Shown piece after piece: positions 5,823 through 62,100 of a stretch of DNA of 64,000 bases (position 1 is its first letter; each line of letters begins with the position of its first letter). The notes under the pieces are model-generated. The model was given only the letters and a program-made list of their open reading frames with translations. It was not told the origin of the DNA and did no database searches. The stretch lies in the NCBI GenBank assembly GCA_037974665.1, contig CM075769.1, forward strand, positions 20,672,139 to 20,736,138, written 5' to 3'. A program made the translations under genes and the position numbers. This DNA is from Ehretia macrophylla (taxonomy: Eukaryota; Streptophyta; Magnoliopsida; Boraginales; Ehretiaceae).

Positions 5823-5858
5823 CCCTCTCCCCCTTAAAACAATTGCGCCCACGCAATT
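5823..5858 (-). promoter_or_regulatory. E2 polypurine tract and adjacent stem-loop
   Basis: Plus-strand CCCTCTCCCCCTT abuts the LTR, so the sense strand has a purine run ending at the LTR start. Immediately upstream in the sense direction is a perfect 7-bp stem: 5841-5847 (AATTGCG) with 5852-5858 (CGCAATT) and a 4-base loop. The stem overlaps the last codons of the integrase frame. Confidence 0.85.
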
Positions 5859-6979: not shown

Positions 6980-7207
6980 ATGCTCAACTTTAACCCTCTG
7001 ACAAGTCAAACATCTGGATACATACCCAGCAATCTCCCTCTTCATATTGTTCCACCAGAAGTGTTGTTTCAGATCTCTATACATTTTAGTACTGCCCGGG
7101 TGAATCGTATACCTCGAATTATGTGCCTCGGACAGAATCTCATTCTTCAAAGTCGGATCACCAGGAACACACACCTTGTCCCTGAATCTGAAAAATACCA
7201 TCTGCAT
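6980..7207 (-). pseudogene. E2 integrase zinc-binding (HHCC) domain
   Basis: This segment holds the N-terminal H-H-C-C domain of integrase: histidines in AHNSRYTIHPG and cysteines in CLTCQ. It is in the same frame as the downstream integrase core but out of frame with the RNase H segment above it. The frameshift falls near 7190, where the two overlapping frames read the same stretch. Confidence 0.9.
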
Positions 7208-8147
7208 GTAATTTAAACTCCAACTCTCCCCCTTTAGCTTTTTCTTGGATCTTCAAGATGTAAGGATCAGTCTTTTGAGCCTCTCTGATCTGTGCTAACA
7301 ATCCTGACTGAATCTGCAAACTAGCAAATCGAATCCCTACCTCAGTAGCCTCTGGCTTCCATGAACAAATTTCTTCCAAAGTCTCCCAATCCTTGATAAT
7401 TAAGCTTGCAACAGTAGCATTTCGGCTCAAAGTATCAGCAACAACATTTGCCTTACCTGGCACGTAGTTAATAGAACAGTTATAACCACTCAATAGCTCT
7501 AGCCATCTCCGCTGCCTCATATTCAGATCCTTCTGTGAAAACAAATACTTGAGACTCTTGTGGTCAGTAAATATTTCAAATCTGCAACCCCACAAGTAAT
7601 GACGCCACTTCTTCAGAGCAAACACAACTGCAGCTAACTCTAGATCATGTGTAGGGTAATTGACTTCATAAGGTTTCAACTTCCTCGAAGCATAAGAAAT
7701 CACCTTACCATTCTGCATTAAAACACAGCCCAAACCTTCTTTAGATGTATCACTGTAGACAATGAAGTTCTCTGTTCCCTCAGGTAAAGCTAGTATAGGA
7801 GCTGTAGTTAGTCTCTTCTTCAATTCTTGGAAACTGGATTCACATTTAGCATCCCAGTTGTAAGTAACTTTCTTCCGAGTCAACTGGCTCAAAGGTCCAG
7901 AAATTTTGGAAAAGTCTTTAACAAACCTCCGGTAGTAACCTGCCAACCCAAGAAAACTCCGAATCTCTGACACCGTCTCAGGTCTCTTCCAAGATGAAAC
8001 AACTTCAATCTTAGCTGGGTCTACTGAAATTCCTTGATCTGAAATGATATGGCCTAGAAAAGATATCTGATTCAACCAGAATTCACACTTGCTGAATTTA
8101 GCAAAAAGCTTGTTTTCTTGCAAAGTCTGTAGCACAATCCTCAAGTG
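7158..8147 (-). pseudogene. E2 RT C-terminal part and RNase H
   Basis: This covers the end of reverse transcriptase (thumb and connection: [26 protein letters not shown]) and a full RNase H with its acidic residues ([30 protein letters not shown]). RNase H removes the RNA strand during cDNA synthesis. An in-frame TAA at 8148-8150 separates it from the upstream RT segment; Gln or Glu would fit there. It ends in a frameshift into the integrase zinc domain. Confidence 0.93.
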
Positions 8148-9152
8148 TTATTCATGTTCAGCCTCGTTCTTCGAGTACACTAAAATGTCATCAATAAAGA
8201 TTACGACAAACTGATCAAGATAAGGTCGAAAAACTCTCTGCATCAAGTCCATGAATGCGGCTGGTGCATTCGTCAATCCAAACGGTAACACAACAAATTC
8301 ATAGTGGCCATACCTAGTCCTGAATGCCGTATTTGGTATGTCGTCACTCCGAATTCTGAGTTGATAGTAACCCTGCCTCAAGTCAAATTTGGAGTAAACA
8401 CTCGCACCCTGCAACTGGTCAAACAATTCTTCAATCAACGGCAATAGGTATTTGTTCTTAATCGTGACTTGATTAAGTCCCCTATAATCAATGCATAACC
8501 GTAGCGTGCCGTCTTTCTTTCTCACAAACAACACAGGCGCACCCCACGGCGAAGAACTAGGTTGTATAAACCCTTTCTCAAGCAAGTTCTGAAGCTGAAT
8601 TTTTAACTCCTGAAGTTCAGCCGATGCCATTCTATAAGGACTCCTAGAAATTGGCGCAGTGCCTAGCACAAGATCAATTACAAACTCAATCTCCTTATCC
8701 GGTGGTAAACCCGGTAATTCCTCGGGAAATACACCAGGGAAGTCTCTAACAATCGGAACCTCATTCAAACTCAACTTATCAGTAGGCTGATTGATCAAAT
8801 AAGCTAAGTAAGCTTCACAACCCTTATTCAACAACTTAGAAGTCTTGATCGCTGATAAAAGAGGAATTCGGGCAGCCCTGCAGTTCCCAACAATCTCCAA
8901 TACCAGTAGGTCAGGAACCTGAAGATAAACAATCTTTGTTCTACAATCCAACTGAGCATAATACTTCCCCAACCAGTCCATTCCCAAAATAATTTCAAAG
9001 TCACGGAATGGCAATATAATTAAATCAGCAGGAAATTTACGATTCTCAATGCATATATCACAAGATTTGCAAATAGACTCAGTAACAAATTTTGTACCCA
9101 AAGGCGTAACTTCAACTTCATGCGGCAATTTATCAATGCAAACATTCACAGA
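8148..9152 (-). pseudogene. E2 protease C-terminus and reverse transcriptase core
   Basis: This starts in the end of the retropepsin region (ILGMDWL) and runs through the RT fingers and palm: [33 protein letters not shown] with the first catalytic Asp, [15 protein letters not shown] and [10 protein letters not shown] with the other two. The strand and order match Ty3/Gypsy. It lies in the same frame as the gag-protease segment above, separated by a TGA at 9153-9155. The catalytic residues are kept; the frame itself is broken at both ends. Confidence 0.94.
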
Positions 9153-9683
9153 TCATGCACATGCAGGAGTTATAAATGAATGTGTAGCTCCGGGATCAAT
9201 CAAAACTTTAACTGGCTGAGTATTGAGAAGAAAGGTACCTTCCACTATAGCTGTAGTATCGGGTAGCTCCTCTGCATCCAGTGCAAAGACCCTAGCCTGA
9301 ACCATTTGTGCTGGACGTGCACCTGCAGCACTATTCTGAACACCCTGGCCTCCAGTACGGCCCTGAACATTGTTATACTTAGGGCAATCTCTCACCCTAT
9401 GATCATCGCTTCCACAACCTGTGCATTTACCACTCTTCCTCCAGCAATTAGCCTCAATATGCCCCGATCGATTACAAAAGTTACACTGCTGATTTTGCCT
9501 TACAACAGTGTTTCCTGTAGGTGCTGGAGCTCTGGCAGTAGTAGGAACTGTACCTCCCTGCTGGGGTCTAGTCACAGCTGGCCTAGCCTGAATCTGCTGC
9601 TGTGGCTGATACGGACGTTGCTGAGGAACCTGTGCAGAAGTCTGATACTGCCACGACTGACTCTGGCTGCTCTGGCCCAAATA
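9153..9683 (-). pseudogene. E2 Gag zinc knuckles and protease active-site region
   Basis: A Gln/Pro-rich stretch is followed by two CCHC zinc knuckles (CNFCNRSGHIEANC at residues 66-79 and CTGCGSDDHRVRDC at 86-99), which bind RNA in Gag. The protease active-site loop follows (VLIDPGATHSF, about residue 161). The usual D-S/T-G triad reads D-P-G here, which should disable the protease. Two CCHC knuckles in a row are seen in some plant chromoviruses. Confidence 0.92.
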
Positions 9684-10761: not shown

Positions 10762-13048
10762 TGTCACGCCCCGACCCGACCCCACAAAAGGCCAAGCATG
10801 GACCCGACACATGGACGGAGTCTCCTCTGTACCGCGGACGATCCGAAAACCCCAAAATCAACATAATACTTGCGAAAGCCATAAAAACAATTAAAACAAG
10901 CCGACTTTCTTTTAAAAACATACATCCTCTTATTAACCAACTTTTCAAACCAAAATGCCATGCATACTACACAAGTATTTATGCCACTAAATAGTTAGCT
11001 ATTAGCATGCATTTCTTTACTAGTCATAAGAGTAAACTTTTACAGCTTTACATTCTTTCAACTTATACAACATAAGACCATAGAGGCCTTAAACTAGGAA
11101 ATACATACAAGGCTACAAGCCTCAAAATAAAGCGTCATCCAAGCAATATACATATCAAGCAAGGCTCGCACAAAATCTGGTAACCAACCACCAGCAAAGC
11201 AAAGAAGTGCTATCACGGAAACACTTCCACCTGCTCCTCCTCCTCCTCTATTACCTTAATAGGGTCTGCTTCAACTACTCCTGTAAAAATATAGTATAGA
11301 AAGAAATGAGCAAAAACTATTGCTCAGCGAGGGCAATTGGTCTCAAGGACGGAGATGAGAGGAGTATGCAATGCAATTAGCCAAGCAATTCATACAAATA
11401 TCATATAGAGATACAATAAGCCATCAATAAAGCAAGGCAAGCATTAATACTATAAACACTCAATCAAAGGATACGATACTCTTTTCATGAACAACTTTCA
11501 ATCACGAATTCGATGACGACGCGCCGGCCCAAACCACCTTATAACACCAGTTTGGAATACCCCGGAAGTGTCCATCAATCTACGACCCAAATCTCCCTGA
11601 GAGACAACCCAAGCGAGAAGAGGGAATAGCAGTGGAGCTAGAGCAACCAACACTGGCAACCCGAGGCTACCCAGAGAGGCCCATCACTCACGCGCGAGAT
11701 ACTATGTAATGCAAGACTCGATACAAGGCGATAAACAAGCAATAAAGCCACACGTGGGAGAATAACAAAGTAGGTTACTCTCGCACGCAATAGCAACAGT
11801 TGATATGCATTCCAATCAAAATCAATTCAACAAGTATATCAAGCAACCCTAAGCATTCTATAGACATAATATCAAGAAAACAAGCAAAATCACCAATCGG
11901 CCCCAACTATCAAAACACTACCATTTCCAAACGAGCCACGAGTTCCGGAAACCGACTTCGCCAATCCTCCTAGGTCACCATAAGGCACGTCTAAAGACCC
12001 CGAAACCCTACCTAACCCTAGAATTCACGCAAAGTCCCGATTTCCCCCTTTGCTCATTTGAACTACAACTATACCAACCAAATGCCCAACCAACGCCATA
12101 ATCACACCAAAAGTGCTTCCATGGCCTCCCAAAACAATGCCAACACGCAAAACGAGAAAACGCCAAACTTGACCTAAACGACCCCGACTTTCACCAAGGC
12201 ATAATTCCCGTTTTTCCATTACGCAACCCAAACAAACCATGAATTTAGGCATTCTAGCACACCTAGCACATTTCTACATCAACGGACAGCATAACGGAGC
12301 AACTTCATCGTTTCAAGGGTTTACTATTCACAAAACACTATTCAACAACCAATTTAAATTGCAATCTCAACATTTAACCGCAGAAAATGTTAAAAAGTTA
12401 TAAATACACGTTCTACAATTGCCAAGGAACATTCTAGAAGCATCAAAATGATTTAAATAACAATCTATGGATAAATTCTAAAAATCACAAAGTTAACATA
12501 CATAACGTTTAAATGCGCAAATAACGTGCTTCCCTCACCTTAGGCACTCTTAGTCGCTAGGAAAACAACGCTGGTCACCTCGGAAACCACCCCGCACGAG
12601 CTCACGCGAAGATTGAACGATTGGAAGTTGAAAGGTTTTTTTTTTCTCTCTAAGCTCTCGGCATGCTCTTGAGCTGATTTGCTTTTATTTATTTTTTTAT
12701 TTCCTTAGTTTTAAGCTTATAAGGTGACTATTAGGTCAAAGGGTCAAAGCTCTTAGTCAAACAACTTAAAAATTGGTCAATTTGCCTTATTTTGTGCATT
12801 TTAAAGCCATACTAACTAAGGAACAAATTAATTATAGCTAACAACAATTAAAATATAAAATTTAAGTCATCTAAATACTAGTTTCACTATTTGCTGAGGA
12901 CTAGAAACCGTTCTCTAGCTATCGCTCCCTAAATGCAATGCACGTTACGACAGCAAAGAAGTAACAATTTGAATTCTAAGTACTTAAGAAAATATAATTT
13001 TCAAAATAATAAACAAGGAAATTTCACATTCCGGGCTCGGGTATTACA
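10762..13048 (-). repeat. E2 5' LTR (right copy)
   Basis: This 2287-bp LTR, TGTCACGCC...GTATTACA, is intact at both ends. It carries the TGAG/CTCA hairpin at 11307-11326 (TGAGCAA / TTGCTCA, perfect here). Many of the differences from the left copy are transitions. Confidence 0.94.
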
Positions 13049-13053
13049 GGACC
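13049..13053. other. E2 target-site duplication GGACC (right copy)
   Basis: The five bases GGACC at 13049-13053 repeat 3532-3536 and rejoin the two halves of the TRIM LTR, which proves where E2 inserted. Confidence 0.97.
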
Positions 13054-13549: not shown

Positions 13550-16262
13550 TGTGATAACCCGAACCCGGCATGCATTTAATAGCATTTGACTGCATTTAAT
13601 TAAGTGTTTAATTAGTTAATCAACCATTTTGCACTATTTTGATATTTCTTTTAAAAGCATTCAATAATTTTTATATTGAATAATTTAAAAGATTATTACC
13701 TATTTTTATTGTTTATAGTAATTAGATTTATTTTCTTCTGTTTAATTAAGTGTCATCTTAAATGTTAGTATTTAATTGCATCTGACTACGTGTTTATATT
13801 AACTTATTCTTTTGTACCTTAACATTAATTTCATAATTCTTTAAAATATTCTAGAAATAGTTAAATTAATTATTTTTAAATGAATATTGATTATTTTGAT
13901 TATTTTAATAATCAGTTTTAATTTTCTTGCATTAAATTACTCGATTTTCAATTAAATGAGAAAAGTAACTCCAAGCCGGAGTGAATTTTAAGCTATTCTA
14001 CTATTCTACTTTTCAAAAAAAATTATAGTTTTATATTATTGCTCATCATTTGATTAGCGATCATTTATTGACCGTTCGATCATAGCATTTCAGAAATGAA
14101 AGTTAGAGGAATATTTCTCGGATTTCGTGGATAGCGTTTCTAGTTTAATTTAGCTAGTTTTAGTTGGTTTTCATTAAAATTGCATTGTTTTAACTTGAAT
14201 TCGGTTAAATGGCATCAAAATAAGCTTGTTTGACCATATTTTCACTTAAGCTTGACCTTGCAACATGACCAAAATGCCCTTTGTCATCTTTTATAAATAA
14301 AACAAGGCAAAAATCAAAACAAAACAAATTGCAAAATACCCATTGTATCCCCCCCATGGCCGAATGCATCCAAGGAGAAAAAAATAATTTTTGCTTCAAT
14401 TTTCTTCTACAATCATGCGTGGAATTGCTCGGGGGTCATGGCTCGGGTCCTTATGGGTCTTCCTCGTCAATCTCTGTGAGGGTTTTCACGTTTTTGTGCA
14501 TTTATATTCAAATTTGATTTTTGATTCAATTTCTTAGATTTGATATTTAATGCGTTATAATGCTTGAAATTGCTTGGAATTTCCCCTTTAGGGTTCGTAG
14601 AGCATTGCTTGTTAGTTATTTAGTGATTTTTACAGTTAGAAATGCAAATTGAATTTAGGCAAGAACGTGAATAGTAAAAATAAATAGTAAAACCCTAGAA
14701 TTTTGAATTTTTGATCCGAATTATGATTTCTTGATTTGGATAGGTGCCATTAATGATAGAAAGATAAAATGTGAAATAAAAACAGATCAGCCTTTGTTAA
14801 AATTAAAAATTAGACAAAGAAACGAAAATGGGCCGTTTGACCAAAAGTTGACTGTGCTCGAATTGAGTTGGGGGTTTTGCTATTGAGGGCATGGAAGCAC
14901 TTTTGGCACTATCGTGGCGTTGATTGAGTGACCGGTTAACATAGTTGTAGTTCAAACGCAGTAGGTGGACTTTCGGGCTTCGGTTGGAAAATGAAGTTTA
15001 GTGACATAGAAACGTGCCTTGTAGTGCCTAAGTGAATGTAGTGAAATCGGTTTCCTAATCCCGTAGCTTGTTTGCTCGTAATTGCCTTTGGAAATTAGGG
15101 ATTGAATAGTGATATTTGACGTTTTCGTGCTTGAACTACTATTACGTGTCTAGTTGATGTTCTTGTTGAAGTTAATGATAATCATGCTTGAAAAGTTAAT
15201 TGAATGCTAATGTTGTTTGTAAATGCTTGATATCTCGTTTATCGCCACTAATCTGCACTTTCGTGTTATTGCTCGTTTATTGCTTGTATCTCGTATTGCA
15301 TTACATTAGTGTTAGGCGCGTGAGTGATGGGCCTCTCTGGGCAGTCTCGAGCTGATGCTGCCCTCGGTGATTTGGGTCGTAGATGTGTCGGGGTGCATCC
15401 GGAGTACACCCAGTGGAAGTTATAAGGTGGTTGCGCGCTTATTGTCATCGTTGTCAACATCAAGCTCGAGATTGATGTATCGCTCGTGAAATGGTACATT
15501 GCTCGTATGAGTGAACCATAGTCTTCAAAGTCTGGTATAGCTTTGAATGGTTGTGTTAATGCTTTTATTAATTGTTTATTGTATTGATTGTTTATATTGA
15601 TTGCTTTACTTGTCAGTTATATTGCTTAACTGCCTTATTTGTATTGCACGATCTTCTTTCTCTCCACCTCGATATCTGTCTCGCCCTCACTGAGTATACG
15701 TGTTGTGTATACTCACTCCTCACCACCACATTTCAGGAAATATCATGTTAGCTGGAAAGTTCGTGGTTACGTGATAGATCGTGCTTGAAGAGTTGCCTTG
15801 CATGTTATGTGGCCTGAGTTGTCAAAGATGTAAAGATTTTACTTTCATAAGATGTATGTTTTCATGTATTGTATGTATTTAGTGTTAAAAGTTATGTAAT
15901 TAACTTAACTAAGTTTATTAGAATGTTATGATAGTCTATTTTATGCAATAGGTTAGTATAGTTTAATTGCCAAGCATGAATGTACTTGTCAAAGATGAGA
16001 AGAGATAGGTTAGCTTTTAAATTAGAAATGTATATTTACTTGTGTTCGTTTGTTGAGAACCAAGACTCGGATGGCCTTGAGGTGTTTGTATGGTTGGACA
16101 CGGTGCTGGTCCACTTATATGCTATTGCAGGTTTTGCATTTTGCCTAGAAACAGGGGAGACTCCTTCCGTCTTTCCCTAAAAATTTTGCCCGGGTTTGGA
16201 ATTGGGCTGCGATTAGATTGATTGATAGAACCTCCGGTCTCGAGAGGGATCGGGGTGTTACA
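13550..16262 (+). repeat. E3 3' LTR (X type)
   Basis: It begins TGTGATAACCCGAACCCGGCATGC after the polypurine tract and ends GGGATCGGGGTGTTACA, matching the E5 LTRs in both terminal blocks but longer (2713 versus 2436 bp). It holds the perfect 9-bp hairpin TGAGTATAC / GTATACTC(A) at 15691-15715. The ATCCGGA-loop hairpin lies around 15391-15411. No coding region was recognised. Confidence 0.85.
15691..15715 (+). other. LTR hairpin TGAGTATAC / GTATACTCA
   Basis: A perfect 9-bp stem with a 7-base loop lies 547 bases before the LTR end, followed within 25 bases by a pyrimidine-rich stretch and CAG. The arms differ among LTR families here but stay complementary. Confidence 0.65.
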
Positions 16263-21319: not shown

Positions 21320-22308
21320 TGTAATACCTCGATCCCTCATAGAATCAGGACCACTAGAGCAACCCCACCCGATCCCTAAGGCACGAAAAACGAGGAAAAA
21401 TATACAAAGTTTCTCCTATACTATGGCCAATCCAAACTTGATCAATCAAGCTCAACAACATACAACAACACAAAACCACATAAAATTCCATTCAAGATTG
21501 CATGGTAGGCTTAGCGTTTCCTTATTTTAGACAATACATGATCAACCATTCTAGCCACCTATACTAGTACATTTACAAGACCACTAAGCTTCAAAGTAAA
21601 TTAGAGATTCAATATACAAGTACAACTCCATATTACAACACTTTCAGGCCATATCAAGACAAGTTTATCCAAGCACTCTAGCAAGCAAGTAAAACATCTC
21701 AAATTTCTTCTTCTGCTTGGGAAACCATCCCTACTTATTGTGAAAATGGTAGATAAAAAGGGGTGAGCATGCACTATGCTCAGTGAGGGAGGAATAAATA
21801 CTAGAAGTTTTCGGAAAATCCTTTCGTGCAATGCATATAAGCAAGTCATATAAAGAACAACAAGTACACAATAATAAGCACGAAAGTATACATTAATACG
21901 AGACAATCATTCAAGCTTTATAAACTATATAACATATGTAGAAAGGATACGATTTCAATCACGAACACAAACACAAACACGAGTACGAACACGAACACGA
22001 TAATAATGTCGGCAAATCCCTAAACACTCTAATGGGTGTACTCCGGATGTACCCCGAATATCCTATGACCAACACCTTGAGACCTTCAATGACCAAGCGA
22101 GTAAAGGAATAAGGTATGAAGGTTAAGCAACCAACCACTGGCAAGCCCGATGCCACCTAGGGAGGCCCAACACATCCGGCTCAAAGGATATAGTTGCAAC
22201 CATTGATGCGAGATACATGATATAATACTTGATAATCCACGAATAATCAACTGATAAACACACAAATGAGGGACAACAAAGTAGACTGCCCCTCGAGCAC
22301 ACAAGCAA
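21320..22308 (-). repeat. Z element, partial LTR
   Basis: It starts TGTAATACCTCGATCC and matches the reverse of about 41760-42706. It carries the hairpin TGAGCAT / ATGCTCA at 21764-21782 and a GTAC-type hairpin near 22034. It breaks at 22308 in the middle of the LTR, where the next copy begins. Confidence 0.82.
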
Positions 22309-23145
22309 TGAACGCCCTGATCCATCGCAGAATCAGGACCACTATAGCAACCCGACCCAATCCCTAAGGCATGAAAAATGAGAAAAAATAGATAGAGTTT
22401 CCCCTGTGCTATGGCCAGACCAAACTTGGTCAATCAAGCTCAAAAACATACAACAACACAAAACCACATAAAATTCCATTCAAGATTGCATAGTCGGCTT
22501 AGCATTTCCTTATTTTAGACAATACATGATCAACCATTCTAGCCACCTATACTAGTACATTTACAAGACCGCTAAGCTTCAAAGTAAATTACAGATTCAA
22601 TATACAAGTACAACTCCATATTATAACACTTTTAGGCCATATCAAGACAAGTTTATCCAAGCACTCTAGCAAGCAAGTAAAGTATCTCAAATTTCTTCTT
22701 TTTCCTGGGAAACCATTCCTGCTTATCCTGAAAATGGTAGATAAAAAAGGGTGAGCAAACACTATGCTCAATGAGGGGGGAATAAATACTTGGAGTTTTT
22801 GGAAAATCCTTTCGTGCAATGCATATAAATAAGTCATATAAAGAACAACAAGTACACAATAATAAGCACGAGAATATACATTAATACGAGACAATCATTC
22901 AAGCTCTATAAACTATATCACATATATAAAATGGATACGATCTCGATCACGAACACGAACACGAAAACAAACCCTAAAATAATGTCGATAAATCCCTAAA
23001 CACTCAGTGGGTATACTCCGGATGTACATTGAATATCCTACGACCCAATACCATGAGACCTTCAATGACCAAGCAAGTGAGGGAATAAGGTACGGAGGTT
23101 GAGCAGCCAACCACTGGCAAGTCCGATGCCTACGGAGGCCTAACA
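22309..23145 (-). repeat. Z element, second LTR, part 1
   Basis: It begins TGAACGCCCTGATCC and repeats 21320-22308 with many differences. It is interrupted at 23141-23145 (TAACA) by the W-type solo LTR and resumes at 30221. Confidence 0.8.
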
Positions 23146-35086: not shown

Positions 35087-35111
35087 GAGGACAACCTACT
35101 TTGTTGTCCTC
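35087..35111 (+). other. LTR hairpin GAGGACAAC / GTTGTCCTC, loop CTACTTT
   Basis: A perfect 9-bp stem surrounds CTACTTT. Related LTRs keep the loop while the stem changes in a paired way (see 4533-4557). Confidence 0.65.
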
Positions 35112-35139
35112 ATTTCTATGCCTTTTGAAATAAATGTTT

Positions 35140-36087: not shown

Positions 36088-36440
36088 AATTGTTGGTGTT
36101 TGGGGTTTGCCGGCATGTTCGTGATGCTCGTGGTTCGTGGCTCGTGAATGAAGACTTGGGAGTGGAACCGTATCCTTTTCAATATGATTGCTACTTATCA
36201 TTGTATTCCTACCAAAGTATTGGTTAATGTGTGAGATGTTTTACTGATGTTTATGATTTGCTTCCGAGCTAAAACTTCTAAAGTAAGCTTAGAGCTTTAT
36301 TGCCTTGAGTTAGCATTTAGTCTTGCAATCGATTTTATCACTTGATCTTATTGTTACTTGAGCTACATGATATACTTGTTCATTTGCATTGCATGAGAAT
36401 ATTGCGAAAACCTCTCCGGGTATTTGTGCACCTCCCTCAC

Positions 36441-36465
36441 TGAGTATACTCATAATGTATACTCA
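36441..36465 (+). other. LTR hairpin TGAGTATAC / GTATACTCA
   Basis: A perfect 9-bp stem with a 7-base loop lies 479 bases before the LTR end, followed by TCTCTTTAACTATTTCAG. Confidence 0.65.
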
Positions 36466-36949
36466 TTCCTCTTCTCTTTAACTATTTCAGGCGAGGCAGG
36501 TTCAGTTCCTCTGGAGACGGAGGAGGAGGCTCGGGAGTCTCTTTGAGTTCCTGTGCAGTTTTGCGTGGTAGTTCTTGTAAATGTAGTAGTTAATATGAAA
36601 TCTTTTGAGGCCTGTGTGCCTTGTAAATATTTGATAAATGTAAATATGTATCTAAGCTTAAGTTTACCTAGGCTAAGCGGTCTGTAATATTTTTGGAGGA
36701 CATTAAGACTGTTAGCTAACTAACCTAGAACTCTATATAGACTATTTTGCTAAGACTAAATAATTAGCGTTATCTTGGGAACTTCAATGACTTATGTTAT
36801 TTGTGTAGTTTTGTGTGTTAATTCCTCTGGAAACAGGTGTTGGAATATCCTATAAACAGGGAAGACTCTGCCCGTTTTCCCTCGTTTTTCGTACCCCGAG
36901 TTTGGGTTCGGGACTCTGATCTTGTAAGGGATCGGGGTGTTACACAACC

Positions 36950-40358: not shown

Positions 40359-42706
40359 TGTGACACCCCAACCTGATCATATAGTTATTTTATTATGCAT
40401 ATATTTATATGATTATTTTAATTGTTTGTACATACATGTTTTCATTAATTTGTATATATCTCGATAAATGTGCATTGATAATTATTTGAATCACATTTCG
40501 AGAGTGTAGAATTAATGCTAATAGTAGTAGAATATATAAAAAAAATAGTGTAAAAGTGCACCAGTGGGCTTTATTAGACCATTAGAAGACTAACTAAGCT
40601 ATTGGGCCAAATTCATTAAAAACAAGAACAACTTAAAAGCCCATTGGCCCATTTTAATTAGTTAGCTTATTAATATAACAAATAAGAGCCAAAAATAAAA
40701 GGAGGGTCGGACTTGGTGAGAGAAGAAAGAGGGAGATGATGAATAGTTAGGGTTTGGTTAGAAAGTGAAGGAAAAAGTGAAATTGAAGAAGGAAGAAGTG
40801 GTTTTTAGCTTAGTTTCTTGCATTTCTACCATTCTAAGGTGAAGGATCATGTTTATTTGCACTTTTTATTGTTTATCTTGCTTATGGTATAAATGGTATG
40901 TTGTAGACAATGGTGTAATTGAGCTATAAATGCATGTGAAGTGAGTTATTATGTGTGTAGACAATTATGCTAGAATATAAATGCATGTGTAATGAACTCT
41001 AGTATGTGGTATTAGTTGTAGCCTTTATCTTGCATAATGATCAATGTATAAAGCTCAAGTGTTTGTTAAATGTTCTAAGTGAAGTGTTATACTTAATTCA
41101 TAGCAAGAACAAGTACATAGCTAGCTTAGTATGCAAGAAAACAAGCTAATTGAACATTAGTGTACGAGTGTAAACTAGTTAGATTGCGCAACTATTTTGC
41201 AGAGCTGATTTGAGATAGCAAACGTTGTCGGAATTGGCTAAAGTTTTATATGTTATGCCCAAGACCTTGAGGAACAAACTCTCTTTTAGGTACAAACTCT
41301 AATTATGTCGTTAAGGTGTGTTTATAAAGCTAAAATAGTAGGGTTCCGATTGACCTGTAGGTGTAAGGCTACTTGCATAGTCTACTTCTAGAGGCCATAA
41401 CTTGATGAATATAGCTCCGAATTAGGATTCGTTTGAGGCTAATCCCATCTATACTTATTGACTACATGACTGTCTAATTTTAGAGCTTTTATAGAACATT
41501 AAGGATGGTAGCTGAATCAGTAAAGTCATGCATGTGTAGCCTAGAATTTCAGCTTGTATCACCAAGTGCTTATGTTGTGTTAGTGGAATTATTGATTGAA
41601 TATGTTGCTATCGTGTTGAATGTGAGAAGTTATTGGCTATCAATGTGAATTATTGTTATCTATGTGCAAGTGTTTGAGTGATAAAGAATGGTTCCAATGC
41701 ATGAATACTAGAACTATAATTTGAACTAGAGCATGTTCTATCGCTTATATTGATCGCTAATTGTTTATGTGCTCGAGAGCAACCTACTTTGTTGTCTCTC
41801 ATTTATGTGCTTATCGAATTGATTGGTTATTGATTGTTAAATGCTATATCGTTGTCATTATCGTATCAATGATTGCATAACCTTATCATTTGGTACAGAT
41901 ATGTTGGGTCTCCCTGTGCAGCATCGGGTTTGCCAGTGGTTGGTTGCCTAACCTCCGTGGCCTATTCCCTCACCTGCTTGGTCTGGAGATTACCAGGGGG
42001 TGTTGGGTTGTAGGATATTTAGGGTACATCTGGAGTACACCCAATGAAGTTTGGGATTGTCGGTATTATCGTGATCGTGTTCATGATTGTGATCAAGATC
42101 GTGATCGTCATTGAATTGGAGTGATAAGGGTTAATTGAATCATATCCTTTTAAAATGTGTTATCTAGCTTCATTATTTTGAATGATTATCTCATATTGTT
42201 ATTGGTTATATGGCTTACTTATTTGCATTGCACAAAAAAACTTTCAAAAACTTTCAAAAACTTCCCGGGTTTATTCTCCCCTCCCTCACTGAGCATAGTG
42301 TATGCTTACCCCACTTCTCTAACATTTTCAGCTATAGTAAGGTGAAATTGAAGTGCTTTGCAAGTGTCTGAGCCTACTATGCTTGGAGTGTCGTTTTACT
42401 TATGATAGTTGTAAGTTGCCTTGTAAATGTCAATGGAATATGAAGAGTTAGTGAATCATTGTAAAGTTGTAATAAATGTATAATTGGTCTAGTTTGGTTT
42501 TGTAATTTTATTCAATTTGGGTTGTAAAAGATAAAAGATTAAAAGATGTTGAATGCTTGTTGTGTTGATATTGCTTGATTGTACAGATTTAGGATTGACC
42601 TAAGTACAGGGAAAACTCCGTTTGTTTTCCCTCGTTTTTCATGCCCCGTGGTTGAGGTCGAGTTGTTACTAGTGGTCCTGATTCCACAATGCATCGGGGC
42701 CTTACA
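40359..42706 (+). repeat. Z-type solo LTR
   Basis: This 2348-bp LTR, TGTGACACCCCAACC...GGGGCCTTACA, has a perfect duplication TGGAG (40354-40358, 42707-42711). It is the most complete Z LTR and the reference for the split copy at 21320-39069. Shared hairpins are near 41770, 42022-42042 and 42290-42308. Confidence 0.9.
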
Positions 42707-43230: not shown

Positions 43231-43659
43231 TATAATGCTTCGATCCCTCACAGAATCAGGTCCCCGATCCCGAAATCTCAAGGCAAGAAAAACGAGGAAA
43301 AACGGATAGAGTTTTAATTGTTTCTAGGCCTATCCAGTTACCTGCACTCACAAGAAATAGCTGCAACAATACTACACAAGCATTCACAACATCCATAACC
43401 TCCTTTAAACATAATTCTCCAAAACTCTAAGGTCATCCGAGCCTTTCTACTACAACAATCTAAACATACAAACGTGCATTTCCTATCAGTTACCGAAATA
43501 CCCTGATTATATTTCCAATTATCATACCACTCTAATCTTTTCTACTTTATTTTTTTAGATTTTAAGTCAATCAACCAATCTCCATTTAATCCCAGACAAG
43601 TATGCAAGTTATCTAGACAATAAAGTAAAGCATTAGAGTTATTATAAGCCAACTATAAC
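43231..43659 (-). repeat. U-type LTR, part 1
   Basis: It starts TATAATGCTTCGATCCC (expected TG, now TA) next to LINE sequence. It is interrupted at ATAAC 43655-43659 by E5 and resumes at 50303. Confidence 0.72.
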
Positions 43660-46095
43660 TGTGACACCCCGATCCCTCTCGAGACCGGGAGTTCTAACAA
43701 TCAATCTATTCACAACCCAAATCCAAACCCGGCAAGATTTTAGGGAAAAACGGACAAGTCTCCCCTGTTTCTAGGCAAATTGCAAAACCTGTAATAGCAT
43801 ATAAATGGACCAACACCGTGTCCAACCCTTCAACCACCTCAAGGTCATCCGAGCCTCGGTTCACAACAAGCAATTCACAAGTAAATATAAATTCAAGCTT
43901 AGCAATTAAACTACACCAACCTATTGCATAAAGTAGACTATCATGACTTTCTATCTTTTTCCCTTTTTGTCATTACAAATATATATTGAAGTTAAGCTAT
44001 ATCAACTAAATACATAATCTAATGAACTTAAATTACATCCCCTTTAACATTAAATACATATAATACATAAAAGCATACAACTTTACAACTTTGACAACTC
44101 AAGTCACATAGGCACGCAGGACAACCCTTCAAGCACGGACTTTCACGAAATCACGAACTTTCCAGCTAACATGGCATTTCCTGAAATGTGGTGGTGAGGA
44201 GTGAGTATACACAACACGTATACTCAGTGAGGGCGAGACAGATATCGAATTGGAGAGAAAGAAAGTCGTGCAATGCAAATAAGACAGTTAAGCAATATAA
44301 CTGATAAATAAGCAATCAAGGTAAACAATCAATACAATAAGTAATTACTGAAAGCATTAACACAACCATTCAAAGCTATACCACACTCTGAAGGCTATGG
44401 TTCACTCATACGAGCAATGTACCATTCCACGAGCGATACATCAATCTCGAGCTTGATGTTGGCAACGATGACAATAAGCGCGCATCCACCTTATAACACC
44501 AGTTTGGAATACCCCGGAAGTATCCATCAATCTACGACCCAAATCTCCCTGGGAGGCAGCCCAAGCGAGAAGAGGGAATAGCTACGGAGCTAGAGCAACC
44601 AACACTGGCAACTCGAGGCTACCCAGAGAGGCTCATCACTCACGCGCGAGACACTATGCAATGCAAGACTCGATACAAGGCGATAAACGAGCGATAAACA
44701 AGATATCAAGCATTCTCAACAATGGATAAACATTTCAATCAACAACCAACTCTAACAAGCGGAATAAGCATTAGCAAGCATAACAAGCAATAATAAGCAT
44801 TAACAAGCATTCTATAGGCATAACTTCAACAAAACACACAAAGTCACAAATCGGCCCCAACTATCAAAACACTGTCATCTCCAAACGATCCACGAGTTCC
44901 GGAAACTGACTTCGCCAATCTTCCTAGGTCACTATAAAGCACGTCTAGAGACTCCGAAACCCTACTTAACCCTAGAATACAAGCAAAGCCCGGTTTTTCC
45001 CCTTTGCTCGTTTGAACTATAACTATACCAACCAAACACCCAACCAATACCACGACCGCACCAAAAGTGCTTCCATGGGCTCCCGAAACAATGCCATCAC
45101 GCAAAACGAGAAAACGCTAAAGTCGACCTAAACGACCCCGACTTTCACTAAGCCGTTTTTCTCCATTTTTCTATTACACATTCCAATTAAACCACACATT
45201 TAGGCATTCTAGCATACCTAGCACCTTTTCACATCAACAGACAGCATAACAGCGCAACTTTATCGTTTCAAGGGTTTACTATTCACTAATTACTATTCAT
45301 TAAACAATTTAAATTGCAATTTCGATTTTCAACCGCAGAAAATGCTAAAAAGCTATAAGTACATGTTCTACAATCAACAAGGAACATTCTTTAAGCAACA
45401 AAACGATTAAAACAACAATCTACGCATAAAATCCAAAAATCAAAGTTTAGATACAAATATTTCAAATGCGCAAATAACGATGAAACCCTCACCTTAGACG
45501 CTCCTAGACGCTAGGAAAACCTCGTAGAGTGCCTAAAACCACCCCGTGCAAGCTCACGCGAAGATTTGGTGATTTGTAGTTGAAGTTTTTTTTTTTTTTC
45601 TCCTTCTTTTCCTCATGTTTTCAAGTCTTTCCTCTCTGTTTTTTCGTGTGCAATTCTGCTTATTTAGGAAAAAAAAATGACAAGTCAAAGGTCAAAGATT
45701 CGGTCAACCCGCTAAACCAAAACAGCTATGCGCGACCTTACGAAAACGGCCATAACTTCTTCTAGAAACTCCAATTCATGAACGGTTTGAAGCCTCAGAA
45801 ACTAGACTCATAGAGCTTTCCAACCATATATAATTTGCTACCTAACTCTTCCCCAATTGGTTCAGATTTAATTCCAAAGTTGACCCAAAATTTGACTAAC
45901 TTAACATTGCATTTTTTTTATTTCTAATCCCAAGTTTGCCTTTTATTAAACATTTCAAAAATTTCCACCTTGTCCTAGTTGGTCAATGTAGATGAAAAGT
46001 CAACTAGTTTGGTCAAAGAAGGTGAAAGGTCAATAAAATGCAATTTAAATGAACTTTAAATGCTATTGAATACATGCCAGGTTCGGGGTATCACA
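43660..46095 (-). repeat. E5 3' LTR (left)
   Basis: This is a 2436-bp LTR, TGTGACACCCCGATCC...TTCGGGGTATCACA. A perfect 9-bp hairpin is at 44202-44226 and the GGATAC-type hairpin at 44506-44525. Confidence 0.94.
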
Positions 46096-47864: not shown

Positions 47865-47866
47865 CC

Positions 47867-50302
47867 TGTGACACCCCGATCCCTCTCGAGACCGGGAGTT
47901 CTAACAATCAATCTATTCACAACCCAAATCCAAACCCGGCAAGATTTTAGGGAAAAACGGACAGAGTCTCCCCTGTTTCTAGGCAAATTGCAAAACCTGT
48001 AATAGCATATAAATGGACCAACACCGTGTCCAACCCTTCAACCACCTCAAGGCCATCCGAGCCTCGGTTCACAACAAGCAATTCACAAGTAAATATAAAT
48101 TCAAGCTTAGCAATTAAACTACACCAACCTATTGCATAAAGTAGACTATCATGACTTTCTATCTTTTTCCCTTTTTGTCATTACAAATATATATTGAAGT
48201 TAAGCTATATCAACTAAATACATAATCTAATGAACTTAAATTACATCCCCTTTAACATTAAATACATATAATACATAAAAGCATACAACTTTACAACTTT
48301 GACAACTCAAGTCACATAGGCACGCAGGACAACCCTTCAAGCACGGACTTTCACGAAATCACGAACTTTCCAGCTAACATGGCATTTCCTGAAATGTGGT
48401 GGTGAGGAGTGAGTATACACAACACGTATACTCAGTGAGGGCGAGACAGATATCGAATTGGAGAGAAAGAAAGTCGTGCAATGCAAATAAGACAGTTAAG
48501 CAATATAACTGATAAATAAGCAATCAAGATAAACAATCAATACAATAAGTAATTACTGAAAGCATTAACACAACCATTCAAAGCTATACCACACTCTGAA
48601 GGCTATGGTTCACTCATACGAGCAATGTACCATTCCACGAGCGATACATCAATCTCGAGCTTGATGTTGGCAACGATGACAATAAGCGCGCATCCACCTT
48701 ATAACACCAGTTTGGAATACCCCGGAAGTATCCATCAATCTACGACCCAAATCTCCCTGGGAGGCAGCCCAAGCGAGAAGAGGGAATAGCTACGGAGCTA
48801 GAGCAACCAACACTGGCAACTCGAGGCTACCCAGAGAGGCTCATCACTCACGCGCGAGACACTATGCAATGCAAGACTCGATACAAGGCGATAAACGAGC
48901 GATAAACAAGATATCAAGCATTCTCAACAATGGATAAACATTTCAATCAACAACCAACTCTAACAAGCGGAATAAGCATTAGCAAGCATAACAAGCAATA
49001 ATAAGCATTAACAAGCATTCTATAGGCATAACTTCAACAAAACACACAAAGTCACAAATCGGCCCCAACTATCAAAACACTGTCATCTCCAAACGATCCA
49101 CGAGTTCCGGAAACTGACTTCGCCAATCTTCCTAGGTCACTATAAAGCACGTCTAGAGACTCCGAAACCCTACTTAACCCTAGAATACAAGCAAAGCCCG
49201 GTTTTTCCCCTTTGCTCGTTTGAACTATAACTATACCAACCAAACACCCAACCAATACCACGACCGCACCAAAAGTGCTTCCATGGGCTCCTGAAACAAT
49301 GCCATCACGCAAAACGAGAAAACGCTAAAGTCGACCTAAACGACCCCGACTTTCACTAAGCCGTTTTTCTCCATTTTTCTATTACACATTCCAATTAAAC
49401 CACACATTTAGGCATTCTAGCATACCTAGCACCTTTTCACATCAACAGACAGCATAACAGCGCAACTTTATCGTTTCAAGGGTTTACTATTCACTAATTA
49501 CTATTCATTAAACAATTTAAATTGCAATTTCGATTTTCAACCGCAGAAAATGCTAAAAAGCTATAAGTACATGTTCTACAATCAACAAGGAACATTCTTT
49601 AAGCAACAAAACGATTAAAACAACAATCTACGCATAAAATCCAAAAATCAAAGTTTAGATACAAATATTTCAAATGCGCAAATAACGATGAAACCCTCAC
49701 CTTAGACGCTCCTAGACGCTAGGAAAACCTAGTAGAGTGCCTAAAACCACCCCGTGCAAGCTCACGCGAAGATTTGGTGATTTGTAGTTGAAGTTTTTTT
49801 TTTTTTCTCCTTCTTTTCCTCATGTTTTCAAGTCTTTCCTCTCTGTTTTTTCGTGTGCAATTCTGCTTATTTAGGAAAAAAAAATGACAAGTCAAAGGTC
49901 AAAGATTCGGTCAACCCGCTAAACCAAAACAGCTATGCGCGACCTTACAAAAACGGCCATAACTTCTTCTAGAAACTCCAATTCATGAACGGTTTGAAGC
50001 CTCAGAAACTAGACTCATAGAGCTTTCCAACCATATATAATTTGCTACCTAACTCTTCCCCAATTGGTTCAGATTTAATTCCAAAGTTGACCCAAAATTT
50101 GACTAACTTAACATTGTATTTTTTTTATTTCTAATCCCAAGTTTGCCTTTTATTAAACATTTCAAAAATTTCCACCTTGTCCTAGTTGGTCAATGTAGAT
50201 GAAAAGTCAACTAGTTTGGTCAAAGAAGGTGAAAGGTCAATAAAATACAATTTAAATGAACTTTAAATGCTATTGAATACATGCCAGGTTCGGGGTATCA
50301 CA
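47867..50302 (-). repeat. E5 5' LTR (right)
   Basis: This is the 2436-bp partner of 43660-46095. The hairpin is at 48410-48434. Differences from the left copy include single-base changes near 48052, 48529 and 49291. Confidence 0.94.
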
Positions 50303-50754
50303 ATAACTACCAAATTATACAATCCTTTAAACTTATATTACAATCCTCCATGACAACACAAATACATACAAGACCAAAAGGTCTCAAAATGGACACAAAC
50401 ATAACACAATCACATTCTTCTATATCCCACACACTGATTGAGCAAATAAGCCACACAGCAAGCAATTCCACCTCAGCTCCTCTTGAAATATTTTAAAAAG
50501 AGGAATGAGCAAACACAGTTGCTCAATGAGGGATGTGGTACAGTTAACCGGGGGCGTTTCGAAAATCTTTTCGTGCAATGCAACAGTTAACTCACATAAT
50601 TCAATTAGAACATATAACAACATATTCATGTAATAAGGTAACAAGATAGCAAGATAACCACTTAAGAAAAGGAAACGGTTCCACTAAGCCTCGATCCATG
50701 AACCATGAACCACGATATCAAAAGCCGGCATAACCCCTTACTCCAGATGGGTGT
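50303..50754 (-). repeat. U-type LTR, part 2
   Basis: This resumes the LTR from 43659, starting with the ATAAC duplication. It contains the perfect hairpin TGAGCAA / TTGCTCA at 50506-50525. It breaks at 50754 in front of a T-type LTR. Confidence 0.72.
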
Positions 50755-53066: not shown

Positions 53067-56000
53067 TGTAACGCCCCGATCCCTCACGAGACTGGGTCCC
53101 GATTCCATATCCCGAGGTCACAAAAAATGAGAGAAAATAGACGGAATCTCCCCTGTTTATAGGACTTATCTGATAACCTGTGAACAACATAATACAACCA
53201 CAATACTATAATCCAACATTCTCATACAACCCCAACTCCAATCATCAACTTTTCCCTATCTCCAAGCCATCCGAGCCTTAGACTTAAACAAAATAAGCAC
53301 ACAAGCATACAAGACCGTCAAGCGATAAAGTAAATCATTAAGTTATTACAAGCCACCTACCACTAATAATTCTTACAAGTCCTTAATTGTACATTGCAAC
53401 TCCTCATGGCAATACACATACATACAAGACCAACTACAATTACTTCCAAGATTCCTATGGTCTCTAAGGACTACCATCCAAGCCACGTAACTATTCCACA
53501 TAGATTCACAGGTACAAACAATTGAAGCCAACACAACCAATCTCAAAAGTTCCCGAGCTTTCACTATGTCAACTCTGGAGGCACTAACCCTGAAAATGTT
53601 AGAGACGAGGGTGAGCATACCAATATGTATACTCAGTGAGGAGGGGGAAACGGGAACATTATACCGGGGTTCGTGCAATGCAGCAATTTAACACAATTAA
53701 CACGATAAATAAACAATGAATAACAATTCCAATACCACACTTAAAAAGGATACGATCGATAACTCTTATCACTCCAAATCTTCGATCCCTGATCCACGAA
53801 CCACGAACCACGAACTCAATCTCGATATGCCAGCATCCCAAACTCCAATGGGTACTCCGGATGTACCCGATACCTACGACCCAACACCTCTGGCAATCTC
53901 CAGACCAGGCGAGTGAGAAAATAGGGTACGGAGCTAGAACAACCAACCCTGGCAAGCCCGTTGCCGCCCAGAGAGGCCCATCGCATCCGCCCCGACGATA
54001 AGGTTGCGCAACCATCGTTTCGATAACACAAGAAGCATTAATAAAAGCAATATAACAAGGTAAGCCGATAAACACATAATCGAGGAACAACAAAAAGAGT
54101 TGTCCTCACACATAAGGAATTATAACTAGTTGACAACAATAGAAGCGAAATAACGAGCATTAACCATTAAACTCATTCTACTAACTATAAAACTAACAAA
54201 TCTCATTAGAATACGCTAATAACATTGATAGCATGAAAACTATTTAACATATTCAATATACAATAGAAAAATGCAAATAAGATGCAACTCCCTCACCTTT
54301 AGTAAACCAAACCTGTAGGAGTCTAGCCAAGAACCCTTCCAATTCAACTCCAAAGTATCAACTTTTTCCAATTACCTTTACATAATACAATCAACTAATT
54401 ACATAAGAAGTTATACATTCATTCTCAACTAAAGCTAGTTCATAATTTCATTAACTTATTCATCTCCATTTAATTCCATTAACTAACATAACTATCAAAT
54501 ACATTTCTTTAACCTTGCAAACGAAATTAACCATACTAGAATTCTAACAACTTAGGCAATGGACAATTCAACTTCATAAACAACAAAAGTAACTACACTT
54601 TAAACATATAATGTAATACAATTATCAAGTGCCTTTCACCTTTTAGCATGCATTTAGTTCATTAATTCTCTCGCATATAGTTACAATCTATAAGTAACAT
54701 AACAATATAATCAAGATATACTCACATTTTAACAAGGTAGCTAAGCAACTCAAACCACGAAACTTTACCGATAAGCTAATCATACTCCCAAAGTACATTC
54801 AATCACTTAGCTAGTCCAGTCACACTTAAAAACCAGTAAATAATTTAGTACTAAGTTCAAGTATCCACCTAGATAGATCTCTCTTCACCAAACCACTCTA
54901 TTCCACCACTCAACTCAACTTAATCACGTCATTACACTCGAATTAAATACCTAACACTCAAATGACACTCAAAGTACCCAAAGGACACCAATTACACACT
55001 TGGCTAATCAATTCAAGTTCAATTACCAACAATCAATCTAACTTTCTTCCAAATGGCCCTTTATATTTCATAATCACAAAACTATCCATTTATCAATGAA
55101 AATACATTATATTCACTCTAGAAACTCCACAATCACCAATGAATCACGACCAAGCACTTCATAGCACGCAAACTCTCACACAGCTTAAAGTATACCAAAT
55201 GGCCCTTATACTCAATCAGCTCTTCCACAAGTTCAAATCACATTCTAGCAATTCCAAGCATTAAACTAGTCAATCTAGCATTTAGGTCACCTACTTCAAA
55301 CATTAAGACAAGCATTTAACCCTTAATGCAACAAAACTCTATTCCAATTATTAGTAATTGAGCTATATACTTCACACAAGGTACACAACTCCCACTCTAA
55401 CTATATTAACTCCATATGTATACCTTATGACGCCTTTCAATGCTAAGGAATCTCACTTTAACCCACAATTATCATTTAACTCCAAAATGCCCCAATGTCC
55501 ATTTGAACTACAACTACTAAACCCGATTGCCAAATCAATGTCATAAATGCATCATAATCAATAATCAACCTATCTAAGACTATCCAACACACTTAGACAC
55601 ACTTAATCAGTACTCCGTTCATATGACCCCTTGGTTCATTAGTTCAATTCAATGCTCATACCAAACACGAGTCACCTAACTCACCAGCTAGTTATTCCAC
55701 ACTTCCAATGACACTCTATAATGCAATCTAAGGCCAAGAAAACCCGTTTTTAGCGATGTCTAGCACAAAAGTCCTGAAGGTCCCGTGGTCACTTTGAACC
55801 ATAGCTACTCAAACCATCCCTCAAACCAACACCATAAAAGCATTTTAAGCACTACCACACCTAATGAACACTAACTACATCATTCAAATTCACCCGGTCA
55901 ATAATTTTACGCAAAGCCCCTTTTGAATTCAAGCCAATTCTACTAGTTTATGCAAGGTTACTCAACCTATATACATTCTAATCACTAACCTAGGTTCAAT

Positions 56001-57530: not shown

Positions 57531-58727
57531 TGTAACGACCCCAACTCGGCCCTTCTCAAGACTAGGTCAAAGTCCATGTTCACTATTGTTGCGGTCTCAT
57601 ATAAATAATTAACGGTAACCTTAAGAGAAAGAAAATATAGAAAAATATCCAATAATAAGCTTTTATACAATAAATTAAGTACAAAAAGTGTTACATCATC
57701 TGAGATCCAATAACTATCCAACTATCATACAAACTAGGGTTTCAGCACAGCTACCCTTCTACCCGAAAGTAATACAAACAAACTCTAACTTTTACAAGTT
57801 GGGTCGAAACATGACAGGTAAGGAGCCTTGAGCACGTAATTATAATGTCAACCCATAACAAGCTAAGCTGCACCTACAAAGGGGGAGACAAGAGTGTGAG
57901 CTCTGGGGAAGCTCAGTGAGGATGGAATAAAAGAGTTTTGAAAACCTTTCTGGTCAGGTCCCTTTTGAAAATCGTGATGCAATTCACGTACGGTAATATA
58001 ACAAATTATCCACATAAGATACTCATAACAAGTAGAAATTACTATCCCATTCGAGTCACATATCAAATAGCGGTAATAATTTTTAGATAGATAATCAATT
58101 TATATTGCATTAATAATTATATTTAGTGGCATATACCCACATCACATATCAGCCTACTCTTCGAGGGTAGAATGTCAAACGAGAGTAGGATACTACTCTC
58201 CGAGGGTGGTACCAAGCGAGAGTAGGAACAAGTCGATCATTTCACAAGGTGGCCAACCTTGATCACAATTCCCTTTTTCTTATCTCTCCTAAGAGGGTAC
58301 TCTGGATTGTACCCAAAATCTACGACCCAGCTCCCCGAGGGTAGAGATCGCCAAGCGGGAGAGGGAATAGGTCTGTAATAGACACGGGAGCATCGGCAAG
58401 CCTTATGTCGCCCGGCGTTTGTGCAAGCTATCGGACCTGAGGTTGCAACCCCTAATTGTCAAGAGCACACAGGCATGCACAAGTAGCCATAGAATACACA
58501 GTAGATAATATGGGGATCAACAAAAGAGGTTGTCCCAGGCAAGTAATAAATACTTTCTTGGAAATTCGGAATATAATGGTGGTTTGTGAAAGTAGATATT
58601 AAATTGGAACTCATCGTTGTCACTTAGTTTATTTAATAATTAATTTAAGTAGGTGAACAGCTCAAATAATAAAGTACATAATTGGAAAACTCTAGTCATC
58701 CTATAGTTGACAGTCTTAGTTTGTAGG
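57531..58727 (-). repeat. V-type LTR, split by Copia E6
   Basis: It starts TGTAACGACCCCAACTCGGC, the reverse of the end at 16561. Hairpins are at 57897-57915 (TGAGCT / AGCTCA), 58295-58314 (GGGTAC / GTACCC) and about 58512-58536 (GTTG arms). It is broken at GTAGG 58723-58727 and resumes at 63989. Confidence 0.78.
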
Positions 58728-61743: not shown

Positions 61744-62100
61744 GAACTAGGAGTAATGTAATAGAACAGTTAAGATGTTTAGTGAGTTTACTGACAGATA
61801 ACAAGTTAAAAGAAAATTTGGGAAGATACAAAACAGAAGGTAGGGAAATAGAAGAAGTAGGATGAGCCGATCCAACAGCACACACAGAGATCGATGAACC
61901 ATTTGTGAGCGTGACAGTGGGAAAGGAACCAAACCGAAGGTCAGACAACAAGTTGACATTACCGCTCATATGATCTGAGGCACCTGAATCAATTACCCAT
62001 GGGGTATGACGAGGCAAAGTCTGAGTGAGGCATGCAGTAAAAGAACTAGCATGAGCAAGAGAAGTAGTAGAGGAAGGCATTGAAGGATGAAGGCCTGTTG
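61724..62100 (-). pseudogene. E6 aspartic protease
   Basis: WVIDSGASDHMSGN carries the intact D-S-G active site (residue 31 of the open stretch 61724-62080), followed by LPKFSFNLLSVSKLT. Frameshifts near 62095 (against gag) and 61745 (against integrase) isolate it. Confidence 0.92.

Follow-up and report, generated by a model that had tools for sequence, protein, structure and literature searches.

The hairpin that recurs in the LTRs of this window (the whole stretch of 64,000 nucleotides that was analysed) probably belongs to an intron. Judged from the sequence, the best explanation is an intron located within the LTR, with a U12-type donor, a 3' splice region organised by the hairpin, and partial splicing by the minor spliceosome through which RNA would be sorted. 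We put the probability of this reading at about 0.58. An earlier note had reported a hairpin with paired changes in its inner stem, 366-656 bases before the end of unrelated-looking LTRs, and had proposed a folded element under selection. All ten of its hairpin coordinates read as claimed, and the distances obtained with LTR ends from self-comparison (43659 and 10762), 543 nt for the hairpin at 44202 and 545 nt for that at 11307, fell within its range. Both covariation and the fixed sequence context support the proposed folded element at a kept position. The LTRs were unrelated-looking in so far as they form 14 clusters; however, many of them share one motif order, GGTACATCCGGAGTAC, RTATCCTTT, TGCATTGCA and CCTCAC with the hairpin, which points to shared ancestry. 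The splice-site-like context had not been seen at that time, and with it the likely function of the hairpin changes.

Hairpin-bearing LTRs were found on both strands, and each copy was read in the sense of its element. In this orientation the 13 copies of the window show a common layout, consisting of a CCTC(A/G)(C/T) box, TGAG directly next to it, a variable inner stem, a loop and CTCA. Exceptions are the box CTTCAC and the TGGG of family W, TAAG in 4082-4101 and CTTA in 42290-42308. Three of the 13 copies (4082-4101, 22752-22770, 53612-53635) were additional to those known before, and the first of them contains an A-C mismatch on the sense strand. Ten window hairpins, eight of the known ones plus 22752-22770 and 53612-53635 in a set that omitted 15691 and 48410, were folded in isolation and yielded -6.6 to -11.1 kcal/mol, with z values of -2.07 to -7.04 against dinucleotide shuffles.

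Further analyses employed a sample of 48 copies, drawn from the 64-kb window and three sets of loci. The first set (L001-L004) was brought in by the family A pattern, with L002 also containing a family G copy, the second (L005-L024) comprised 20 regions at round coordinates on C1-C9, and the third (L025-L040) 16 loci picked for differing stems from the 100 genome matches listed. To find all 48 copies, sequences were scanned for YTCRY-TGRG with a stem of five or more pairs. Consequently, the sample has the box, pairs 1-5 and some of the low stem variation built in, while the donor, the AG and pairs 6 onward are free of this selection. Three scan matches (L015 3195, L032 521 and 481) that lay at another place in the LTR, upstream of their own locus's hairpin, were dropped, which reduced 51 matches to 48. 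The window copy 4082-4101, missed by the scan due to its TAAG, stands outside the 48.

On the 3' side, the first AG was found 17-28 nt past the hairpin in 47 of the 48 copies and in 13 of the 14 cluster representatives, the exception being L007 with an AG at 5 nt. Shuffled sequences had their first AG at 16-28 nt in 20% and before 15 nt in 64% of the cases. The stretch from hairpin to AG is pyrimidine-rich (C + T, judged by eye), the commonest acceptor form is TTTCAG/G, and the sequence context of this AG has the look of a 3' splice site. For the 12 copies of family A, the 24 nt past the hairpin showed a variation of 0.014 compared to 0.112 for the whole region, and these 24 nt played no part in choosing the copies. 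The low stem variation of family A (zero in the arms) counts little, as the stem letters had served to retrieve 6 of these 12 copies.

On the 5' side, the nonamer RTATCCTTT, described as the U12-type 5' splice site (PMC8199999), was located mostly 106-195 nt upstream of the hairpin and 271 nt upstream in one family. It was perfect in 23 of the 48 copies and 7 of the 14 cluster representatives, compared to a chance of 0.9% (0.009) per sequence estimated by first-order shuffles. With at least one perfect copy in 8 of the 14 clusters, the motif qualifies as a U12-type 5' splice site; the six clusters lacking a perfect donor in any copy are A, F, E with L008 8777, L007, L033 and L034. For family W, perfect donors were present in the relatives L028, L029 and L037. 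Little weight was given to matches at 8 of 9 positions (8 copies, 4 representatives), because chance produces them in 18% of sequences. When 167 scrambled motifs were searched in the 14 representatives, 158 were perfect in none, 8 in one and 1 in two, and the best scramble by copies reached 8 of the 48. Using solely the 20 round-coordinate regions, 7 of 15 hairpin copies possessed a perfect donor. Starting from the motif in 264 kb (window plus the 20 round-coordinate regions), the hairpin module followed 60-380 nt after 12 of 17 RTATCCTTT sites, versus 19 of 1586 scramble sites. Of the five misses, two were family D donors, one with a changed hairpin (window 4249) and one at a locus end (L024). 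A scan for the least-variable 9-mers in eight diverged copies (mean diversity 0.317), in whose selection the donor played no part, detected gtatccttt and tgcattgca at zero diversity; two further least-variable sites of this 8-copy cluster lie upstream of both. As the nine core positions served to select the 28 distinct donor contexts, their flanks alone are informative. An A at -3 was present in 27 of the 28, the flanks being otherwise less kept than the core, with weaker preferences for C at -1 (19/28), A at -9 and -10, and G or T at +17.

Table 1. Coordinates of LTRs, hairpins, candidate introns and coding pieces in the window
Feature	Position	Strand	Remarks
3' LTR of the short family A element	43659..46095	-	pair with 47866-50302, 99.6%
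5' LTR of the same family A element	47866..50302	-	hairpin 48410-48434
Hairpin, family A (starting observation)	44202..44226	-	direct reading, fold
AG of candidate 3' splice site ACATTTCAG/G	44181..44182	-	first AG past hairpin 44202-44226
Degraded donor ATAGCCTTC, homologous place in family A	44390..44398	-	7/9 positions match RTATCCTTT
Hairpin, family A copy	15691..15715	+	AG at 15735-15736
Hairpin, family A copy	48410..48434	-	direct reading
Hairpin, family D	11307..11326	-	direct reading, fold
Hairpin, family F	57897..57915	-	AG 57874-57875; without good donor motif
Hairpin, family W, outer G-U pair	387..409	-	donor place reads GTATCTTTA
Candidate intron, 194 nt, family D LTR 10762-13046	11281..11474	-	donor GTATCCTTT 11466..11474
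Candidate intron, 194 nt, other family D LTR (3537-5820)	4056..4249	-	hairpin 4082-4101
Candidate intron, 321 nt	36170..36490	+	GTATCCTTT 36170-36178, hairpin 36441-36465, AG 36489-36490
Candidate intron, 190 nt	42142..42331	+	ATATCCTTT 42142-42150, hairpin 42290-42308, AG 42330-42331
Candidate intron	21734..21950	-	GTATCCTTT 21942-21950, hairpin 21764-21782
Candidate intron, sister of 21734..21950	22728..22938	-	GTATCCATT 22930-22938 (8/9), hairpin 22752-22770, AG 22728-22729
Candidate intron	50482..50676	-	GTTTCCTTT 50668-50676 (8/9), hairpin 50506-50525
Candidate intron, 164 nt	53590..53753	-	GTATCCTTT 53745-53753, hairpin 53612-53635, AG 53590-53591
pol pieces, family D	5834..9683	-	protease, reverse transcriptase, RNase H, integrase end with Tf2-1-like SH3 domain

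The candidate introns between donor and AG (Table 1) were analysed for the 29 copies whose donor scored 8 or 9. Their length ranged from 148 to 321 nt with a mean of 191. The T fraction was 0.41 within the candidate introns compared to 0.30 before and 0.27 after them (60 nt on each side), and T exceeded both flanks in 27 of the 29; G+C was 0.35 compared to 0.44 before and 0.47 after. Enrichment of T relative to the flanks is a trait of plant introns and has served as an argument for the BARE1 intron (PMC3735527). The acceptor of 21734..21950 reads TTTTCAC and that of its sister copy 22728..22938 TTTTCAG. A TATAA(A/G) motif, searched on the upstream side alone, was found in 7 of the 13 window copies 51-198 nt ahead of the best donor-like site, the value of 198 nt stemming from the copy with the poorest such site. 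The upstream TATAA(A/G) places the hairpin probably within the transcript. The proposal that splicing removes upstream ATGs was rejected as unsupported; with 2.02 versus 1.83 per 100 nt, the ATG density was barely raised in the candidate introns, without a clear excess.

Two families illustrate the range of donor states. Family D is a Ty3/gypsy LTR retrotransposon by its LTR pair and its domains in gypsy order. The LTRs (3537-5820 and 10762-13046) are 97.3% identical with a perfect donor in both. Protease, reverse transcriptase, RNase H and the Tf2-1-like SH3 domain scored above the cut-off in broken frames, and the integrase core rve below it (27.6 of 32.6 bits). The family A element has 1.77 kb between its LTRs, in which no frame of at least 150 aa was found, and is for these two reasons probably non-autonomous. 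Its donor place is conserved in 12 copies as ATAGCCTTC or ATAGTCTTC, and just upstream of it the two halves of the family differ strongly; ATAGCCTTC/ATAGTCTTC may be an altered yet used site. A U2-type donor CTC/GTATGAGT considered for family A was dropped, since the A copies vary at this place, with CTCGTAAGAGT, CTCGCTCGAGT and other readings. Over 1.1 kb of U3 (window 4309-5426 and 44486-45602), families D and A are 83% identical, and the blastn match ends short of the hairpin region. It looks as if LTR parts of D and A had been swapped or had diverged unevenly.

The degraded donor of family A beside the nearly invariant 24 nt past the hairpin counts against the intron reading. It agrees with an explanation in which nothing is spliced and the hairpin acts in the leader of the unspliced genomic RNA, serving packaging, dimerisation, reverse transcription or export, with the AG and the donor-like motif as other conserved leader sites. 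In family A the donor is degraded while the surroundings of the hairpin are nearly unchanged in 12 copies, the element in the window is short between its LTRs, and CTCAYTGAG at the hairpin edge is nearly self-complementary. Such a leader element would also agree with the absence of spliced genomic copies in the four families searched (A, D, G, W), a search with a positive control for family D alone. For family A none were found in the genome (joined DNA with 40 of 953 candidates scored, plain pattern with up to 3 mismatches), for families G and W none were found either, and for family D the number of spliced junctions was 0, with 4,896 intact donor borders within 3 mismatches as the positive control. 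Missing spliced copies fit a copying of unspliced RNA alone and fit equally well the absence of splicing. However, a leader element leaves the nine-base U12 donor unexplained, as well as the T-rich interval and the AG-free stretch ending mostly in TTTCAG/G. We consider this explanation unlikely, though a serious one.

The host genome contains snRNAs of the minor spliceosome, with one match for the U12 gene (90.9 bits), seven for U6atac (best 88.9 bits) and two for U11 (best 68.2 bits). The branch site of U12-type introns has the consensus TTCCTTRAY and is expected 10-20 nt ahead of the 3' splice site. A polypyrimidine tract is described as absent from such introns (PMC5932401, PMC8199999). Between hairpin and AG the mean best score for TTCCTTRAY was 6.07 compared to 6.11 in shuffled sequences, and the branch-binding stretch of this genome's U12 did not pair there in excess (mean z +0.7); the same measure ahead of the hairpin gave a mean z of -0.78. 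As this branch site was looked for between hairpin and AG and not found, the candidate LTR intron is not classed as a minor intron, although it looks like one at its 5' end. The acceptor, pyrimidine-rich by eye, may count against the U12 reading too, since U12-type introns are said to be without such a tract. In 10 of the 14 representatives, 5.9 being expected, a YTNAY was observed whose A lies 8-16 nt ahead of the intron end. The box reads CCTCGC in family D (four window and locus copies listed), and its A is replaced by G in 5 of 7 family G copies. With G in place of A, family D and these five G copies cannot use CCTCAC as their branch point.

Removal of the LTR intron by the major (U2-type) spliceosome would use CCTCAC or the YTNAY near the AG as branch point, and RTATCCTTT would be the relic of an older U12-type intron or have another role. 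The pyrimidine-rich acceptor, the U12 branch site that was not found, the surplus of YTNAY near the AG in 10 of 14 representatives, and the loss of the donor motif with retention of the acceptor in family A are all in line with this explanation, and conversion of U12-type into U2-type introns has been described and provides a precedent (PMC8199999). Nevertheless, a relic is hardly expected to be exact in 23 of 48 copies and 8 of 14 clusters, and CCTCAC is unusable as a branch site in family D and 5 of 7 G copies. We therefore regard U2-type splicing as improbable.

In order to estimate the abundance of the hairpin, the genome was searched with the pattern CCTCAYTGAGN{6,20}CTCAY, which fixes CCTCAY, TGAG and CTCAY only and leaves the 6-20 bases between them free. 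This search yielded 26,472 matches (13,160 + 13,312), and the reversed control pattern 25 (11 + 14). Allowing any seven bases in the loop, the stem TGAGTATAC was counted at 12,814 genome sites; it is not confined to family A. Among the 100 genome matches listed, 26 distinct hairpins had Watson-Crick pairs in 67 of 78 cells at pairs 5-7; shuffles of the 3' arm gave a mean of 38.3 (sd 4.4) and reached 67 in 0 of 10,000 cases, where the 26 strings are partly close relatives and the shuffles ignore kinship. Using one hairpin per cluster (13 of the 14 clusters, as one hairpin was too short), 37 of 39 cells were Watson-Crick in a set derived from a scan that required five pairs and chose the best closing base. 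Shuffles of this set, again ignoring kinship, had a mean of 18.6 (sd 3.3), and 0 of 10,000 reached 37. Pairs 6-7, not required by the scan, were Watson-Crick in 24 of 26 cells (13 of 14 clusters), compared to 24.5% in composition-matched random sequence that passed the scan. Together with the 67 of 78 cells at pairs 5-7, this bears out the paired change of the inner stem. Across the clusters, pair 5 is C-G in 9 and T-A in 5, pair 6 is A-T in 8, T-A in 5 and T-G in 1, and pair 7 alternates between T-A, A-T, C-G and T-G. Stems of the TATAC/GTATA type and of the CAAT/ATTG type coexist in the 8-copy cluster.

Inner letters altered in pairs argue against a plain DNA-binding palindrome. The recurring CTCA/TGAG half-sites with their fixed order might suggest a DNA element, either a palindromic binding site or a cruciform in the promoter region, but a bound site would keep its letters, whereas here complementarity is kept; the TATAA(A/G) upstream in 7 of 13 window copies (upstream side searched) speaks against a promoter element as well, and we consider this explanation very improbable. 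Variation of the hairpin versus the whole region was 0.024/0.112, 0.234/0.317, 0.032/0.244 and 0.077/0.233 in four clusters and thus lower in the hairpin each time, a difference that is partly built in, as the copies were picked by the hairpin. Shared descent alone, with young copies and a hairpin free of selection, would suit the young family A element of the window (LTR pair 99.6%) and the low variation that picking by hairpin partly produces, but is hardly credible with stems that change in pairs between clusters and a hairpin that, in each of the four clusters measured, varies less than the whole region, even for copies picked in this way.

For the LTR intron with a U12-type donor, the following mechanism is proposed. 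A leader would be transcribed from the TATA box, with the intron in the leader part of the LTR. The intron would start with RTATCCTTT, recognised by U11, and end at the AG about 17-28 nt past the hairpin. The hairpin would fold between the CCTC(A/G)Y box and the pyrimidine-rich acceptor. Most likely it would either bring the branch region to the AG or screen wrong sites, so that this acceptor is used; alternatively, it may act by leaving only the stretch past the hairpin open. Slow and partial splicing by the minor spliceosome would generate spliced mRNA for translation and unspliced genomic RNA for packaging. LTR introns pose a puzzle, because a spliced RNA, once copied, loses the intron. If only unspliced RNA were packaged and copied, new copies would retain it, and a packaging signal inside the intron would avoid its loss from cDNA, as in retroviruses whose major donor precedes their packaging signal. 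Minor introns are slow and their splicing in plants can be poor, with 4.77% for one construct compared to 79.66 and 94.4% for two U2-type introns (PMC5932401). Transcription, splicing, the choice of spliceosome, the branch point and the purpose are what we infer here from DNA. Slightly short of even odds, and thus tentative, is the broader proposal of a large Ty3/gypsy lineage with a minor intron of new build in its LTRs, in which the hairpin would replace or present the branch site, slow splicing would act as the switch between translated and packaged RNA, donors would number in the thousands, and short relatives would have lost the donor and kept the acceptor.

The candidate introns resemble U12-type introns in the RTATCCTTT donor, GT-AG or AT-AG ends, T-richness and the presence of U11, U12 and U6atac genes in the genome. 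They differ in that TTCCTTRAY was not found, that a hairpin and a pyrimidine-rich stretch precede the AG, and that they reside in LTRs in thousands of copies instead of in a host gene. In barley, partial splicing of BARE1 divides its RNA into pools, and amplification from genomic DNA did not yield the spliced form; BARE2, a parasite of BARE1, is without splice signals (PMC3735527). The lack of splice signals in BARE2 resembles the lack of the donor motif in family A, a parallel of BARE1/BARE2 with D/A that we infer from single elements. In contrast to the LTR location observed here, the BARE1 intron has U2-like borders (CAG/GTAT...CAG/GA) at the start of the protease domain, and the excerpted text of the source does not mention a covarying hairpin (PMC3735527). 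Ogre and EVADE are likewise plant LTR retrotransposons with functional introns; these serve subgenomic RNAs via alternative splicing and are, in the excerpts of the source, not described as LTR-located or U12-type (PMC12786077). Titles and abstract starts of the open-licence literature contained, among the matches listed, no U12-type or minor intron of an LTR retrotransposon and no LTR intron of this kind. Hairpins between branch point and 3' splice site occur in yeast introns, where the stem shortens the effective distance to the AG. Those introns are of the U2 type in host genes, whereas the present ones lie in transposon LTRs.

Plant genes contain a few hundred U12-type introns. In Physcomitrella, 124 were analysed (PMC5932401). 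If the reading as a U12-type LTR intron is true, the thousands of LTR donors (4,896 borders within 3 mismatches for family D alone) would outnumber the U12-type introns of plant genes and may compete for scarce U11/U12 particles. Retroelements would then exploit the slow minor spliceosome to apportion their RNA, and the covarying hairpin would offer a handle on the recognition of 3' splice regions without a standard branch site.

Several further features were observed. Several families have a TTGCATTGCACG-like box (window 44267-44278, minus strand, and similar places) about 30-60 nt upstream of their hairpin; its core shows zero diversity in the 8-copy cluster, and the box was not seen in families G and W. 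The boxes GGTACATCCGGAGTAC and TTGGGTCGTAGG occur in the U3 of otherwise diverged LTRs, e.g. L006, L025 and L031, and this sharing is a sign that the promoter part is of common descent. A perfect 10-bp stem, TGAGGACAAC...GTTGTCCTCA, was found in a different context at 35086-35112, inside a 157-aa open frame that has no Pfam match. At 2902-3361 a 229-bp unit is present in two tandem copies (95%), with a third relative at 12949-13177 (68%). The region 59787-62203 (minus strand) contains Ty1/copia frames with an RVT_2 reverse transcriptase, an integrase part with a retroviral SH3-like domain, and Pol_BBD.
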